A stretch of 64,000 nucleotides of DNA. Source: Prevotella sp. Its GTDB lineage: Bacteria > Bacteroidota > Bacteroidia > Bacteroidales > Bacteroidaceae. The stretch is taken from positions 1 to 64,000 of the forward strand of contig JAFZAH010000037.1 of assembly GCA_017548275.1 (NCBI GenBank), in the 5' to 3' direction. Positions 6,822 through 60,367 of this stretch are shown piece by piece; within the stretch, counting starts at the first letter, position 1, and every line of letters starts with the position of its first letter. Made by a program: the position numbers and the translations under genes. The notes below the pieces were generated by a model. It was not told the DNA's origin. It saw only the letters and a program-made list of their open reading frames with translations, and ran no database searches.

Positions 6822-9191
6822 ATGAAAAAAATCTTTCTTCTCGCTGCGTTCTTTACCATCACCACGATGGCGCAGGCACAAGACAAACTGTATGCCGACG
6901 AGTTTCCGCTCGGCGATGTGACATTGCTCGACGGACCGCTGAAAAAGGCGCGCGACCTGAACATCCAGACACTGTTGAAATACGACTGCGACCGACTGTT
7001 GGCCCCCTATCTCAAAGAGGCAGGTCTCACACCGAAAGCCAAGTCATACCCCAACTGGGACGGGCTGGACGGTCATGTGGGCGGCCACTACCTGACGGCC
7101 ATGGCTATCAACGCCGCCACGGGTGACGAGGAGTGCCGCCAACGCATGGAGTATATAATAGACCAACTGCAACTCTGCGCCGACGCCAATGCCAAGAACC
7201 ATCCTGAATGGGGCAAGGGATATGTGGGCGGCGTGCCTGGCAGCGACCGTGTGTGGGGGAACTTTAAGAAGGGCGATTTCGGTGCCTATTATGGTTCATG
7301 GGTGCCGTTCTACAACATTCACAAGATGTACGCAGGACTGCGCGACGCATGGGTCTATTGCGGCAATGAGCAGGCCAAACGACTCTTCTTGGGTTTCTGC
7401 GACTGGGCTATCGATTTGACGGCAGGACTTTCAGATGCTCAGATGGAGCGTATCCTCGACACGGAGCATGGCGGTATGAACGAGGTGCTGGCCGATGCAT
7501 ACGCTATGACGGGCGAGCAGAAATACCTCAATGTGGCCAAACGGTTCTCGCATCGCCGGTTGCTGACTCCGCTGATGCAGCGTCGCGACTGCCTCGACAA
7601 CATGCATGCCAACACACAGGTGCCCAAGGTGATAGGATTTGAGCGTATCGCCGAACTGAGCGGCGACGAGGCTTATCATAACGCGGGTACTTTCTTCTGG
7701 GACATCGTCACGGGCGAGCGTTCGTTGGCCTTCGGCGGCAACTCGCGTCGCGAACACTTCCCCAGCAAGGAGGCTTGCCAGGACTTTGTGAACGACATCG
7801 ACGGCCCTGAGAGTTGTAATACGAACAACATGCTGAAACTGACCGAGGATTTGCATCGCCGCAATCCCGAAGCACGTTTTGCCGACTTCTATGAGTTGGC
7901 TACCTTCAACCATATCCTCTCTACCCAGCACCCCGAGCACGGCGGCTATGTCTATTTCACCTCTGCCCGTCCGCGCCACTACCGCAACTACTCTGCACCC
8001 AACGAAGCCATGTGGTGCTGTGTGGGCACAGGCATGGAGAACCACGGCAAGTACGGGCAGTTTGTCTATACCCACAAGGGCGATGCCCTGTTCGTGAACC
8101 TCTTCGTGGCGTCAGAACTCAACTGGCGCGAGAAAGGCGTGACCCTGCGTCAGGAAACCAATTTCCCCTACTCTGAGAGCAGCCGCATCACCGTGACTCA
8201 GGGTAAAGGCGAGTTCCAACTGCTCGTGCGTTATCCTGGATGGGTGAAACCCGGCGAATTCAACGTGAAGGTAAACGGCAAGGCGGTAGCCGCAGTCACG
8301 GGGCCTTCATCATACGTGAGCATCGACCGCAAGTGGAAGAAAGGCGATGTCGTCGATATCCAGTTCCCCATGCACAACAGTGTGAGATATATGCCCAACC
8401 TGTCTCAATATATAGCCCTGATGCACGGTCCTATCATGTTGGCCATGAAGACGGGAACGGAAGACCTCGCCATGCTGATTGCTGACGACAGCCGTTTCGG
8501 GCAGTTGGCCGTTGGCAAGAAACTGCCCATCGACCAGGCGCCGATTCTGATTAACAACGACATCGAGGGTATTGCCAACCAATTGCAGCCCGTCGCCGGC
8601 AAACCGCTCCATTTCACCCTCTCCACCAAGATGGTCAATGAGATACGCAACGAACTGATGCCTTTCTTCGAACTCCATGATGCCCGTTACATGATGTACT
8701 GGCTGGCACTGTCGGAGGATAACTACAAGGGTTACCTCGACAATCTTGCCAAACAGGAGCAGGAACGTCAGGAGTTGGAGGCACGCACGGTGGATAAGGT
8801 GCAGCCAGGCGAGCAGCAGCCTGAGTCAGACCATTTCATGGAGACAGACCGCTCATTCACGGGCAACACGAACGATGTGTTCTTCCGCGATGCCAGCGAC
8901 AACCATTATTTCAGTTACCTGATGCAGACGGGCGGCAAGACCGACCTCAACCTGCGCCTGAAATACTGGGGCGTGGGCGAATGGAAGAGCCACGAGTTTG
9001 ACATCTTCGTCGATGACGTGCTGGTACAGTCTGTCAATAACACCGGCAAATACCGCATCTCGGAGTTCAAATACGAGACCTACCCCATCCCCGCCGACCT
9101 GCTGAAAGGAAAAACACAAGTCCGCGTGAAATTCGTGGCCAAACCCCGCAAACAAATCGGCGAGATTTACGAAGTGAGGTTGGTGGAATAG
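6822..9191 (+). CDS. GH127-type beta-L-arabinofuranosidase
   Basis: The 789-residue protein has a signal peptide (MKKIFLLAAFFTITTMAQAQ) and the (alpha/alpha)6-barrel of the DUF1680 family (GH127/GH146). The family uses a zinc bound by three Cys and one Glu, one Cys acting as nucleophile. Matching residues are present: E330 and C332 in PESCNTNNM, and C399-C400 in MWCCVGTGMENH. The C-terminal third (~540-789) is beta-rich. The enzyme should release beta-L-arabinofuranose from plant arabinans or glycoproteins in the periplasm or outside. A -7-like TACCTTTG lies at 6713-6720, about 100 nt before the start. No SusC/SusD pair is next to it. GH127 versus GH146 cannot be settled by eye. Confidence 0.88.
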   Translation: MKKIFLLAAFFTITTMAQAQDKLYADEFPLGDVTLLDGPLKKARDLNIQTLLKYDCDRLLAPYLKEAGLTPKAKSYPNWDGLDGHVGGHYLTAMAINAATGDEECRQRMEYIIDQLQLCADANAKNHPEWGKGYVGGVPGSDRVWGNFKKGDFGAYYGSWVPFYNIHKMYAGLRDAWVYCGNEQAKRLFLGFCDWAIDLTAGLSDAQMERILDTEHGGMNEVLADAYAMTGEQKYLNVAKRFSHRRLLTPLMQRRDCLDNMHANTQVPKVIGFERIAELSGDEAYHNAGTFFWDIVTGERSLAFGGNSRREHFPSKEACQDFVNDIDGPESCNTNNMLKLTEDLHRRNPEARFADFYELATFNHILSTQHPEHGGYVYFTSARPRHYRNYSAPNEAMWCCVGTGMENHGKYGQFVYTHKGDALFVNLFVASELNWREKGVTLRQETNFPYSESSRITVTQGKGEFQLLVRYPGWVKPGEFNVKVNGKAVAAVTGPSSYVSIDRKWKKGDVVDIQFPMHNSVRYMPNLSQYIALMHGPIMLAMKTGTEDLAMLIADDSRFGQLAVGKKLPIDQAPILINNDIEGIANQLQPVAGKPLHFTLSTKMVNEIRNELMPFFELHDARYMMYWLALSEDNYKGYLDNLAKQEQERQELEARTVDKVQPGEQQPESDHFMETDRSFTGNTNDVFFRDASDNHYFSYLMQTGGKTDLNLRLKYWGVGEWKSHEFDIFVDDVLVQSVNNTGKYRISEFKYETYPIPADLLKGKTQVRVKFVAKPRKQIGEIYEVRLVE

Positions 9192-51489: not shown

Positions 51490-51605
51490 TCCACCGCTGC
51501 CGATTCCCGGTTCTCCCAGACCTCCCATTGTTCCCAGACCTCCCAGTTCTCAGAACTCCCACCCCCCAATCTCCTAAACGACCAAACAACCAAACGACCA
51601 AACGA
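51490..51605 (+). repeat. Composite repeat (family I) without a gene behind it
   Basis: TCCCAGACCTCCCATTG and CTCCCAGTTCTCAG units, then CTCCTAAACGACCAAAC units. It is followed at 51606-51684 by AAAGGACAAAAATGGACATG-like words and then hairpin A instead of a long gene. Confidence 0.6.
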
Positions 51606-51684
51606 AAAAGGACAAAAATGGACATGAAAAGGACAGCAAAGGACTTGCCAGAACGAGAAAGAAGTGCTTATTTTGCAACGTCAT

Positions 51685-51762
51685 AACCGCTTTGCCTGTT
51701 CTTGTCCAATAGGAATCTAGGATCCATTATCTTAACAAACAAGAACGACGGAGCGGTTTTTT
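51685..51762 (+). ncRNA. Hairpin RNA candidate, copy A, with terminator-like T run
   Basis: AACCGCTTTGCCTGTTCTTG (51685-51704) pairs with CAAGAACGACGGAGCGGTT (51740-51758) and is followed by TTTTTT. The ~35-nt loop contains CAATAG, CTAGGA and TTAACA. A promoter-like TTG (51645-51647), 20 nt, TTATTTTG (51668-51675) lies just upstream, one mismatch from consensus. Two paralogues follow at 52121 and 52203. It could be a small RNA or simply an elaborate terminator. Confidence 0.55.
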
Positions 51763-51775
51763 ATACCCGCTCAGG

Positions 51776-51950
51776 GAACCCAACCCCCAAAAACCACCCC
51801 AACCCTCCCAAAGGGAGGGAGATGAGAGGTGAGAGTTTAGCTCGCTCCTCCTAGTATTCCCAATATTCCCAGCCCTCCCATTGTTCCCATAACTCCCAGT
51901 TCTCCCAGAACTCTCAACTCCCCAAACGACTAAACGACCAAACCTCCCCA
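51776..51950 (+). repeat. Composite repeat (family I) upstream of the non-coding locus
   Basis: Order as in the clpA leader: palindrome CCCTCCCAAAGGGAGGG, then TCCCAGCCCTCCCATTG and CTCCCAGAACTC units, then CTCCCCAAACGACTAAACG. It ends ~35 nt before the promoter at 51984. Confidence 0.68.
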
Positions 51951-51983
51951 AAATCCAAAAGGACTGAAATGGACAAAAAAAAA

Positions 51984-52015
51984 TTTGGAGGAAATAAATT
52001 ATTTTTATATATTTG
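51984..52015 (+). promoter_or_regulatory. Near-perfect Bacteroidetes promoter without a following ORF
   Basis: -33 TTTG (51984-51987), 20-nt spacer, -7 TATATTTG (52008-52015). The predicted transcript begins around 52022 with GAGGATGTG, which pairs with CACATCTTC (52067-52075). Confidence 0.75.
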
Positions 52016-52120
52016 CAACCGAGGATGTGTTTCCCGGGTGTGGGATTTGCCCCTGTGTGGGCGCACATCTTCAACGACTTAGACTGTAACTCTTTGTCGA
52101 CCAGTACTTTACCGAAATAG

Positions 52121-52192
52121 TAAGCGTTATGCTTTTCTGACAATAGAAACCTAGGAAATTTCTACTCAACATCAGAAATCGCATGATGATTA
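52121..52192 (+). ncRNA. Hairpin copy B of the CAATAG/CTAGGA family
   Basis: TAAGCGTTATGCTTTTCTGA pairs, with bulges, with TCAGAAATCGCATGATGATTA. The loop is CAATAG-AAAC-CTAGGA...TCAACA. The 5' flank has TACCGAA, as in copy C. Confidence 0.5.
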
Positions 52193-52202
52193 AGCCCATA
52201 TT

Positions 52203-52283
52203 GCGTGGCCTGTTGTCATGGCATCTTATGTTGAAGGTTTTCCTAGGACCTCTATTGGAAGATGCAGGCATACAGTGCCACGC
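52203..52283 (-). ncRNA. Hairpin copy C of the CAATAG/CTAGGA family, opposite strand
   Basis: Read on the minus strand: GCGTGGC/GCCACGC and GCATCTT/AAGATGC form the stem, CTGT/ACAG an intermediate helix, and the loop holds CAATAG, CTAGGA and TCAACA in the same order as A and B. Confidence 0.5.
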
Positions 52284-52703
52284 TTCGGTATATTTATCAC
52301 CCCACCAAGGAACTCATCGCGACCCAACCGATGGGAAGGGGGACGAGGGCGTGAGCCAAGATTGGGGACAAAACGTGAGGATTTATTTCATTTTCTCCTC
52401 GGACCGAGGAGAGAAGGCCGAAAACCAGTGAAATGAAAGTACACGCAAGCCCGTCACCCGTAGAAACATGATATACGCCCACCGTACCACGAAAACGGTG
52501 TGTGTTCGGTCTGAGATAATCTAAACCTCTACACACCAACCATAAAATATTAACCATATAATTTGATGACCAACCAAAACCGATATACAACAAACCGAAT
52601 AGAGTCGAAACATTACATTTTGCCTTCAAACAAAAAAACGAGCTGAGGGCAAGAGTTGTATTCGTTTATATATCTAACATTATTAACTTAACATATCATA
52701 ATT

Positions 52704-53852
52704 ATGGGACTTTTAGACAAATTATCAGATCGTATTAAAGATGCGAAAGAATTACTAGAAAATCAAATCTCTAATGCAGGAGGCACAACTAAAGATCAGG
52801 GAACGGCCAATCAAAGCCAAGAACCGCTTCAGCAGCATCCTCAGCAACAAGATTCTCAAGGGTATCCTCAGCAGCAATATCCCCAGGGGTACCCTCAGCA
52901 GCAATATCCCCAGGGGTACCCTCAACAGCAATATCCTCCCATGAATCAATTTCAGCAAGGACCCATGACCGATTTTGGACAAAAGAAGGGCGGAATGTTT
53001 TCCCCAGAATTGGAAAATCTGATACAGGCAACCCTTGAAGATGGCGTTTTAGAGGACTATGAAAAAGCCGCACTAGTAAAACGTGCGCAAGCCGAAGGCG
53101 TAGATCTGGCAGAATTGGAAATATACATTAATTCTATCCTACAACGCCGGCAGAAGGAACTTGAAAAAGAAAAGAACATCAAGGCTCAAAAGAAAGCACA
53201 AGAGCGTAAAGAGGCTTTGGGACGCATTTGCCCAAATTGCGGAAAACCGGTTCCTCCAATGACCTTGAAGTGTGAATGCGGGTTTGAGTTCAATTCTGCA
53301 AACCAAAACCTTTCTTCTGTACAAATGCTTTCTGATAAGATTGAGGCTATTAATAGCAGACCGTTACCAAAGAAAAATAAAAGAAGTCGAAAGGAACTAA
53401 AAGAAAGAGCACAAGAAAAGCAAGATATCATTACCATGTATGCTGTGCCAAACACAAAAGAAGACATTATAGAATTCTGCTCAATGGCAGTTTCCCTGTC
53501 TAAGCCAAAAGGAGGCATTTTAGGAACAATTCCTGGCCGTGTTAAAATACTAGTACCCGCGCTTATAATAATAGCGTTAATTATAGGTCTTATTGCCGGT
53601 GCCGCATCAAGTAATGGGTACCATAGTTTTGGGGCGGTTATGGCTGAAACTGCATTAATGGTAGTGTTTTATGGTGGAATAGCATTATATTTCTTTATTA
53701 CTCGTTATGATTTAAGTACCGTAAGAAATAATATGGTTGCTCAGGCATGGCGAGCAAAATTAGAACAGGTAATCCTTAAAGGGCGTAGTTTGCGTGGAGA
53801 TTCTGATTTTCAACAGCAATTAGATTATTTTGAGAATATGATTAATAAATAA
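52704..53852 (+). CDS. Zinc-ribbon membrane protein with PQQQYPQGY repeats
   Basis: The 382-residue protein begins with an amphipathic helix (MGLLDKLSDRIKDAKELLEN) and a Gln/Pro/Tyr-rich stretch of tandem nine-residue repeats (PQGYPQQQY, 27-bp DNA repeats at 52856-52940). A helical SHOCT-like segment follows (LENLIQATLEDGVLEDYEKA), then a charged coiled coil, and a zinc ribbon CPNCGKPVPPMTLKCEC (~174-190). Two membrane helices lie near 280-300 and 312-332. The layout recalls the zinc-ribbon partners (YdjG/YdjH) of SPFH protein YdjI in Bacillus membrane-stress operons; that link is inference. It opens the AT-rich cluster. Confidence 0.75.
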   Translation: MGLLDKLSDRIKDAKELLENQISNAGGTTKDQGTANQSQEPLQQHPQQQDSQGYPQQQYPQGYPQQQYPQGYPQQQYPPMNQFQQGPMTDFGQKKGGMFSPELENLIQATLEDGVLEDYEKAALVKRAQAEGVDLAELEIYINSILQRRQKELEKEKNIKAQKKAQERKEALGRICPNCGKPVPPMTLKCECGFEFNSANQNLSSVQMLSDKIEAINSRPLPKKNKRSRKELKERAQEKQDIITMYAVPNTKEDIIEFCSMAVSLSKPKGGILGTIPGRVKILVPALIIIALIIGLIAGAASSNGYHSFGAVMAETALMVVFYGGIALYFFITRYDLSTVRNNMVAQAWRAKLEQVILKGRSLRGDSDFQQQLDYFENMINK

Positions 53853-58059: not shown

Positions 58060-58191
58060 ATATGGCAGAATATAAAAATGACAAAATCACAGAATGCTTG
58101 TGGAACAAAGTATCGTGAGACATTTCTCTTTTCAAAAAAGATATAACAAAACCACAATCCATTTCAAGTAATAAAAAGAATAAAGGAGTAT
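58060..58191. other. Gap without a gene
   Basis: AT-rich spacer between the ion channel and the repeated 5' element; no ORF or TAnnTTTG promoter is seen. Confidence 0.5.
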
Positions 58192-58216
58192 GCCGAAAAT
58201 CCTTTAAAGAGTAGGC
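58192..58216 (+). promoter_or_regulatory. Repeated 5' element, copy 2
   Basis: GCCGAAAATCCTTTAAAG then AGTAGGC, 21 nt before the ATG at 58238. It has the same 5' and 3' blocks as copies 1 and 3 with a variable middle. Confidence 0.6.
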
Positions 58217-58237
58217 AAAACTAATTAATAATCTATT

Positions 58238-60295: not shown

Positions 60296-60321
60296 ACTAA
60301 ATGACAATGTAATAGGTACAA

Positions 60322-60346
60322 GCCGAAAAACCTTAAAAGAGTAGGC
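60322..60346 (+). promoter_or_regulatory. Repeated 5' element, copy 3
   Basis: GCCGAAAAACCTTAAAAG then AGTAGGC, 21 nt before the ATG at 60368. Confidence 0.6.
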
Positions 60347-60367
60347 GTATAATTATATTTGACTAAT

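Follow-up and report, generated by a model that had tools for sequence, protein, structure and literature searches.

REPINs and BIMEs consist of paired inverted REP sequences whose halves can form one long hairpin, and they occur in multiple intergenic copies. The element described here likewise comprises two inverted half-hairpins able to form one long hairpin and is multicopy and intergenic, but differs in its preferred orientation, its preferred distances to promoter and start codon, an RNA-strand bias, and a short reading frame. Leader-peptide attenuators offer a second comparison. In the portion of PMC5418344 covered here, which credits the tetQ attenuator to Wang et al. 2005, such attenuators are described for the resistance genes ermC and, in Bacteroides, tetQ. 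Like the element, whose alternative helices are a candidate feature, they combine a short upstream frame, alternative helices, and a coding gene that comes next (PMC5418344). Unlike them (tetQ being compared by description only), the element is one leader family before many unrelated genes, its frame lies inside an arm of a ~164-nt near-palindrome, and no inducer is known.

Structured RNAs from the same phylum include DUF805b as well as Flavo-1, Bacteroidales-1, Bacteroides-1, Bacteroid-trp, GUCCY-hairpin, and Bacteroides-2, most of which are found in Table 1 of PMC2864571. No Rfam model matched the element at gathering score in the window (the entire 64,000-nt stretch of Prevotella sp. DNA analyzed) or at 29 other loci, and at E values up to 10 nothing overlapped the element within 51600-52700, in keeping with the preliminary description of this locus, which had recognized no known family. 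GUCCY-hairpin and Bacteroides-2 carry no Rfam number in that table, and a small GGGACUG-type hairpin located 3′ of the element (see below) might overlap GUCCY-hairpin. Two DUF805b RNAs (RF02914) are present in the window, at 58183-58217 and 60313-60347. From the covered portion of PMC8040213, the human-microbiome screen candidates HMP_4078, HMP2_4205, and HMP2_1032 are palindromic, 106-132 bp in length, and mostly or only from Bacteroidetes; they resemble the element in being palindromic and, compared by description only, could overlap the family. No description of the leader was seen in the open-licence literature searched, and it was absent from the covered portions of PMC7366714, PMC10994844, PMC2864571, PMC5418344, PMC10989005, PMC9723704, and PMC8040213. 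A word search of the accessible part of PMC11109978 returned neither "Bacteroid" nor "Prevotella." The RNA is apparently undescribed.

One 164-nt element with two arms

The preliminary description reported three paralogous hairpins (A, B, and C) with conserved loops and different, still paired stems. The hairpins are real and their coordinates accurate to within a few bases, including the T run after A. The window contains the shared pattern CAATAG..CTAGGA..YAACA at three places, against 0.01 expected, and its exact form had no further match in the source genome (87% complete). Measured against 200 dinucleotide shuffles, folding was strongest for A (Table 1; a slightly shorter stretch gave z -3.66), followed by C (z -3.34; 1/200 as good), and was weaker for B (z -2.03; 7/200). 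The proposed loop conservation is common to A, B, and C at this locus, but the CAATAG and YAACA parts vary in other copies, across which a loop core of the CCTAGG/CCTGAG/CGTAGG type persists.

When 51680-52300 was searched in 60 same-genus genomes, B and C proved homologous elsewhere as a single unit, in neighborhoods without any visible common gene. They are the two arms of one 164-nt plus-strand element (Table 1). An alignment of seven copies displayed conserved ends (AAGCGTTATGC..CACGCTT), a conserved center, and intervening stretches that vary freely yet still pair; covariance model R1 was built from these seven. Upstream, 51503-51960 contains dispersed intergenic repeats of the CTCCCAGTTCTCCCAG and CCCTCCCAAAGGGAGGG types, which are also found in further genomes of this genus.

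Table 1. Features at the leader locus, in window coordinates
Feature	Position	Strand	Basis
Promoter-like elements of A: TTG 51645-51647, TATTTTGC 51669-51676	51645..51676	+	sequence
A, stand-alone long-stem hairpin, then T run	51685..51758	+	fold z -4.25; 0/200 dinucleotide shuffles as good
Promoter-like elements of the leader: TTTG 51984-51987, TATATTTG 52008-52015	51984..52015	+	sequence
Possible 5′ leader hairpin GATGTG..CACATC	52024..52069	+	sequence inspection
Long-rod leader RNA, fold I	52122..52285	+	R1 match 158.4 bits, E 2.9e-39 (window copy is one of the seven used to build R1)
Hairpin B of possible fold II	52125..52188	+	-16.6 kcal/mol for that half
Short frame ATG CTT TTC TGA (M-L-F), 5′ arm	52129..52140	+	sequence
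Hairpin C of possible fold II	52203..52283	+	-37.7 kcal/mol for that half
Next same-strand gene, 419 nt downstream of element	52704..53852	+	weak, below-cutoff Pfam match

The arms pair as a long rod

In fold I, the 5′ arm pairs with the 3′ arm along a single rod, and comparison among copies provides strong covariation support for this structure. Across 106 copies (103 distinct rows; an earlier set held 74 copies), 92.2% of cells are paired, and 50 of 62 rod pairs have changed on both sides. Doubly changed pair cells number 928, compared with 279±13 after shuffling and 101-153 when slid, and rod pairs account for each of the nine column pairs with the strongest covariation. Swapping arms between copies costs ~6 kcal/mol (z -21.9 and -17.8 in 72 copies, with one antisense match and the second L096 copy removed), although relatedness among copies inflates z here and confounds the other swap tests and the unclustered Fisher tests below. 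The original reading of these hairpins as independent paralogues is rejected, since the dominant covariation is between B and C. The covarying homologues recovered in other genomes by covariance-model search bear out the broader proposal of a structured RNA under selection.

The transcript inferred from these data runs on the plus strand, whereas C had been placed on the minus strand; the C hairpin can form from either. Among paired cells of 73 rows (one antisense match removed), G-U outnumbers A-C by 583 to 131, a strand bias that disfavors a DNA palindrome devoid of RNA function, although single-stranded DNA could produce a bias too.

A competing fold returns the two hairpins

Separate B and C hairpins, unsupported as first stated, reappear as a possible fold II, which is less well supported than the rod. 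Here the apical and basal helices each contribute a 3′ strand (GCGUGG..CUG and CAG..CCACGC, respectively), and the two can pair; the basal stretch is a conserved bulge in the rod. The C hairpin of the preliminary description is this fold. In the window, GCGUGGCCUGUUGU closes C by pairing with the 3′ strand ending ACAGUGCCACGC. A competing helix of at least 9 bp is available in 191 of 192 copies (199 less seven lacking a recognizable apical strand), with a median of 13 bp, a mean of -18.7 kcal/mol, and 141 distinct strand pairs. Compensating changes occur, such as GUGUGAG with CUCACGC in copy L319. Swapped 3′ strands reach 9 bp in 1840/1920 cases (mean -16.8 kcal/mol) and shuffled strands in 954/1920 (mean -8.8 kcal/mol); since both often attain this length, the competing helix is mostly conserved sequence as opposed to covariation.

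Tests of own versus swapped pairs gave z -8.3 for the competing stem, -7.3 for arm B (106 copies), and -7.8 for arm C when the apical strand is included. In 72 copies, arm B scored z -4.0, arm C without the apical strand (C5-C3) scored z -0.9, with 389 of 2000 permutations as good, and the variable part of arm C paired worse with itself than when swapped (z +6.6). On average, the best fold is more stable than fold II by 14 kcal/mol, and 10 of the 192 copies have a difference of 5 kcal/mol or less; for the window copy, folds I and II are ~4 kcal/mol apart (-58.6 versus -54.3). From the pairing controls and swap tests, we therefore regard fold II as plausible and partly supported and the support for fold I as strong.

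Distribution across Bacteroidia

Within the genus, model R1 had matches in 178 of 299 genomes; nine candidates were scored per genome, and as many as seven of them matched. Across the order, it matched 59 of 198 genomes, belonging to 49 of 151 genera. A wider covariance model, R2, matched 44 of 198 genomes drawn from the class. In a phylum draw, the 14/198 matched genomes say nothing on other classes because the listed matches and misses all share one class. A 20-base pattern located at least 119 stretches in named genomes; 78 of 80 such loci tested match the model, and they include Bacteroides, Phocaeicola, Parabacteroides, Alistipes, Butyricimonas, Muribaculaceae, and Xylanibacter records. 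Viral contigs contributed 13 full and 2 truncated copies from 80 stretches tested (84 found by a looser pattern), and seven plasmid records matched, with the element recovered by model in 6/6 stretches examined. The leader stretch of plasmid pBUN1 had no match in E. coli genomes.

Copies studied closely were high-scoring model matches or carriers of the exact 20-base pattern (70 of at least 150 model matches in the genus set, 20 chosen stretches in the order set, and 80 of at least 119 pattern stretches), so the proportions quoted here describe good copies. One copy (L138:7086-7248) sits in a metagenome-assembled record titled Staphylococcus sp., where the downstream protein clusters with a Bacteroides one; this label is probably a labeling or binning error.

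Position between promoter and gene

The sigma-ABfr promoter has elements near -33 and -7, according to the covered portion of PMC7366714. Among 198 distinct copies with sufficient upstream sequence, 134 have the Bacteroidota -7 motif TAnnTTTG 44-66 nt upstream, peaking at 52-55 nt, versus a mean of 10.5 copies in two control intervals of equal width. On the downstream side, 125 of the 139 copies with sufficient flank have a sense ORF of at least 60 aa that begins no more than 110 nt away (median 53 nt), against 14/139 on the other side; truncated and antisense matches were left out of an early subset of these counts. By position alone, the element is placed as a putative mRNA leader downstream of a promoter, and a conserved structured leader RNA is, in our estimation, very likely. 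The window copy is atypical and not the best example of the leader: its -7 motif lies 114 nt upstream, whereas other copies peak at 52-55 nt, and no ORF of at least 60 aa begins less than 400 nt from it.

Genes following the leader are diverse. Their 154 proteins form 82 clusters, and 96 of the 154 have a hydrophobic N-terminus by a simple rule. A family scan of 81 of the 82 cluster representatives, cut at 330 residues, retrieved HSDR_N, DarT, Zn_ribbon_2, PorV, HxsD, ZorA2, and helicases. One plasmid copy precedes a DUF4433 gene. Another, on pBUN1 (L357:2560-2723), is flanked by a MobV relaxase gene and by the gene for the MUN-1 beta-lactamase, whose start codon is 52 nt beyond the element. 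A 7.6-kb island of pBUN1 is described in PMC10989005, in the covered portion of which the words "promoter" and "hairpin" were not found.

Two further features accompany the leader at its 3′ side. Of 199 copies, 50 carry a T run after the hairpin. The stretch between element and start codon often has a small hairpin whose loop resembles GGGACUG (motif GG[GA][AG][CT]TG). This motif is found in 67 of 187 copies versus 4.5 after shuffling; its flanks are complementary in 65 copies (z -12.3).

Near-identical leaders precede unrelated genes

Among 518 pairs of leaders with an identity of 88% or more, 442 stand before genes whose proteins have no detectable similarity to each other. In three example groups, identity is near complete within AAGCGT..ACGCTT, declines to related-but-diverged sequence up to the promoter, and falls to background beyond. 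As hairpin identity rises, the mean identity of the preceding 50 nt climbs from 0.56 to 0.83, while the next 50 nt upstream moves from ~0.57 to 0.67 and the 50 nt downstream from ~0.57 to 0.74. Because the preceding 50 nt follow the hairpin in this way, the exchanged module appears to include its 5′ segment. At L323:3676-3838, a tandem leader copy looks chimeric at the apex, its 5′ half being that of a neighboring copy and its 3′ half of another type.

Such exchange could also arise if the element were mobile palindromic DNA of the REPIN/BIME or MITE kind, acted upon by a Y1-type transposase in trans, with leader position merely reflecting where insertion is tolerated. Two inverted halves making a long palindrome, a multicopy habit, a stand-alone half (hairpin A), and near-identical copies beside unrelated genes, with identity dropping at AAGCGT/ACGCTT in the three example groups, are all as this account predicts. 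We nonetheless judge it unlikely, given that gene orientation is nearly fixed, the -7 motif keeps a preferred distance, G-U pairs exceed A-C pairs, the short frame appears selected (see below), and the module takes in its 5′ segment; moreover, only 6 of 12 element-carrying genomes searched had a Y1_Tnp match. Mobility of this kind is compatible with leader function.

Recombination sites acting as single-stranded DNA, such as integron attC, and the bridge RNA of IS110, a candidate prompted by the two internal loops, would likewise account for a covarying hairpin, exchangeable genes, and the occurrence of some same-strand copies 1-2 kb apart. Neither reading explains the short frame. The position after a promoter and before a gene does not fit an attC-like site, and the IS110 DEDD transposase was missing from all 12 element-carrying genomes searched; both candidates were rejected, and we consider this class of explanation extremely improbable. 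Same-strand copies 1-2 kb apart were seen in L323, L322, L319, L320, and L321, the L322 pair preceding duplicated genes.

A short reading frame in the 5′ arm

An ATG lies within the 5′ arm, in GCGTTATG, in 157 of 183 distinct copies. The frames it opens stop after 4 or 8 codons in 131 of the 157, and 99 begin MLIL. The central helix keeps a TAG or TGA in 146/157. With 25-nt spacing, which puts this helix stop out of frame, 66 of 70 copies have an in-frame stop before it, versus 24 of 69 where it is in frame (Fisher 2e-14, unclustered; of the 183 copies, 26 lacking an ATG and 11 lacking the helix-stop motif were excluded). Read in the two remaining frames, the same sequences have earlier stops in 31/140. 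This contrast holds after clustering at 90, 80, and 70% (p 3e-5, 0.03, and 6e-4), with 7/7 versus 0/6 at the 70% level. Termination of the short frame thus looks selected in this comparison.

The ATG is lacking in 41 of 199 copies, distributed as 7/71 in the genus set, 1/81 in the named and viral sets, 18/31 in the order set, and 15/16 in the class set. A T run follows the hairpin in 29 of these 41, versus 21 of the 158 copies with an ATG, which suggests that ATG-less copies are a terminator-like version, a contrast confounded with phylogeny.

Second-messenger riboswitches precede very different genes. A leader that binds a small molecule or protein in riboswitch-like fashion, with no ribosome on the short frame, would share that breadth of downstream genes; it would also suit the conserved internal segments between freely covarying helices and the 15 of 16 class-level copies without ATG. 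Against this explanation, which we hold to be somewhat unlikely, stand the Bacteroidales copies, with their short frame and the selection on its stops.

Hairpin A is an isolated relative of arm B

Hairpin A has relatives with compensating stems in genomes G019 and G167, near a similar 188-aa gene whose orientation differs (orthology in G167 was judged by eye). Strong A copies were found in 3 of 200 genomes; since the window and G019 built the A model, only G167, found by it, is an independent strong match. A loose regex scan (up to four errors) was too permissive and proved useful solely in pointing to the G019 copies. Among six weak matches in the 200 genomes, three are the B arms of leaders, and the A model matches arm B of the window at E 4e-6. 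From these matches, A is therefore an isolated, stand-alone relative of arm B. A role as terminator of the adjacent 188-aa gene is unlikely because the gene faces A in the window and points away from it in G019 and G167. In G019, a 155-bp direct repeat (95%; L006:3237-3390 and 7930-8084) contains most of the A hairpin and flanks ~4.7 kb with a glycosidase-like and two ATPase-like ORFs, the gene kinds being assigned by eye.

With its promoter-like elements, hairpin, and T run, A could be imagined, along with terminated leaders, as a trans-acting small RNA that pairs with leaders, all the more so given the loop parts common to A and B in the window and the recurrence of A beside a similar gene in G019 and G167. 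The rarity of strong A copies, two of the three having served to build the model, speaks against this idea. Flank alignment found no excess that would make A a general leader partner (own mean 20.5 versus control 20.2): G019 stood out (33 versus 24) and L038 slightly so (28 versus 23), but most leaders, the window included, had no B-like partner above control, and the window alignment did not single out A (own 22, control up to 28). We deem a trans-acting role very unlikely. The alternative readings considered here overlap one another.

A candidate portable attenuator

Taking these comparisons together, the reading to which we incline, as slightly more probable than not, is a bistable leader-peptide attenuator that is portable between accessory genes, with a mechanism that may be partly wrong in its details. 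Members of Bacteroidota would equip many unrelated accessory genes with a cis-acting 5′ leader RNA, set between the promoter and the gene. This leader would fold as one long rod, 5′ arm on 3′ arm, and could probably refold into two hairpins in tandem, B and C, through pairing of the 3′ strand of its basal helix with that of its apical helix. In most copies, a putative frame, usually of 4 or 8 codons, would open in the basal helix and end by the TAG or TGA of the arm. A ribosome on this short frame would cover the 5′ arm and decide which fold forms. The fold, in turn, would set downstream transcription in copies with a T run or translation where a GGGACUG-type hairpin precedes the start codon. 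We infer that the RNA is expressed and that its ribosome-driven switch responds to a signal; operation as a ribosome-controlled attenuator is a tentative proposal, to which we assign somewhat less than an even chance.

Given the many unrelated genes, the two folds, and the tiny frame, the RNA may act as an on/off switch that can be carried from one accessory gene to another. A further possibility, which we rate as more doubtful still, is that a single translation-sensing switch operates throughout the class Bacteroidia, a bistable leader with an in-arm frame spreading between unrelated accessory genes. If so, genes for restriction, DarT-like and Zorya-like functions, lipoproteins, and a beta-lactamase would form a "regulon by portable leader" and not by transcription factor.

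A leader that regulates through competing folds usually belongs to a single gene or pathway; here, in many Bacteroidota, near-identical leaders front unrelated genes. Those served include defense-related genes and a beta-lactamase gene on a mobilizable plasmid. If the switch works as proposed, it would provide a common expression logic for a large, poorly understood part of the accessory genome of gut and oral Bacteroidota.
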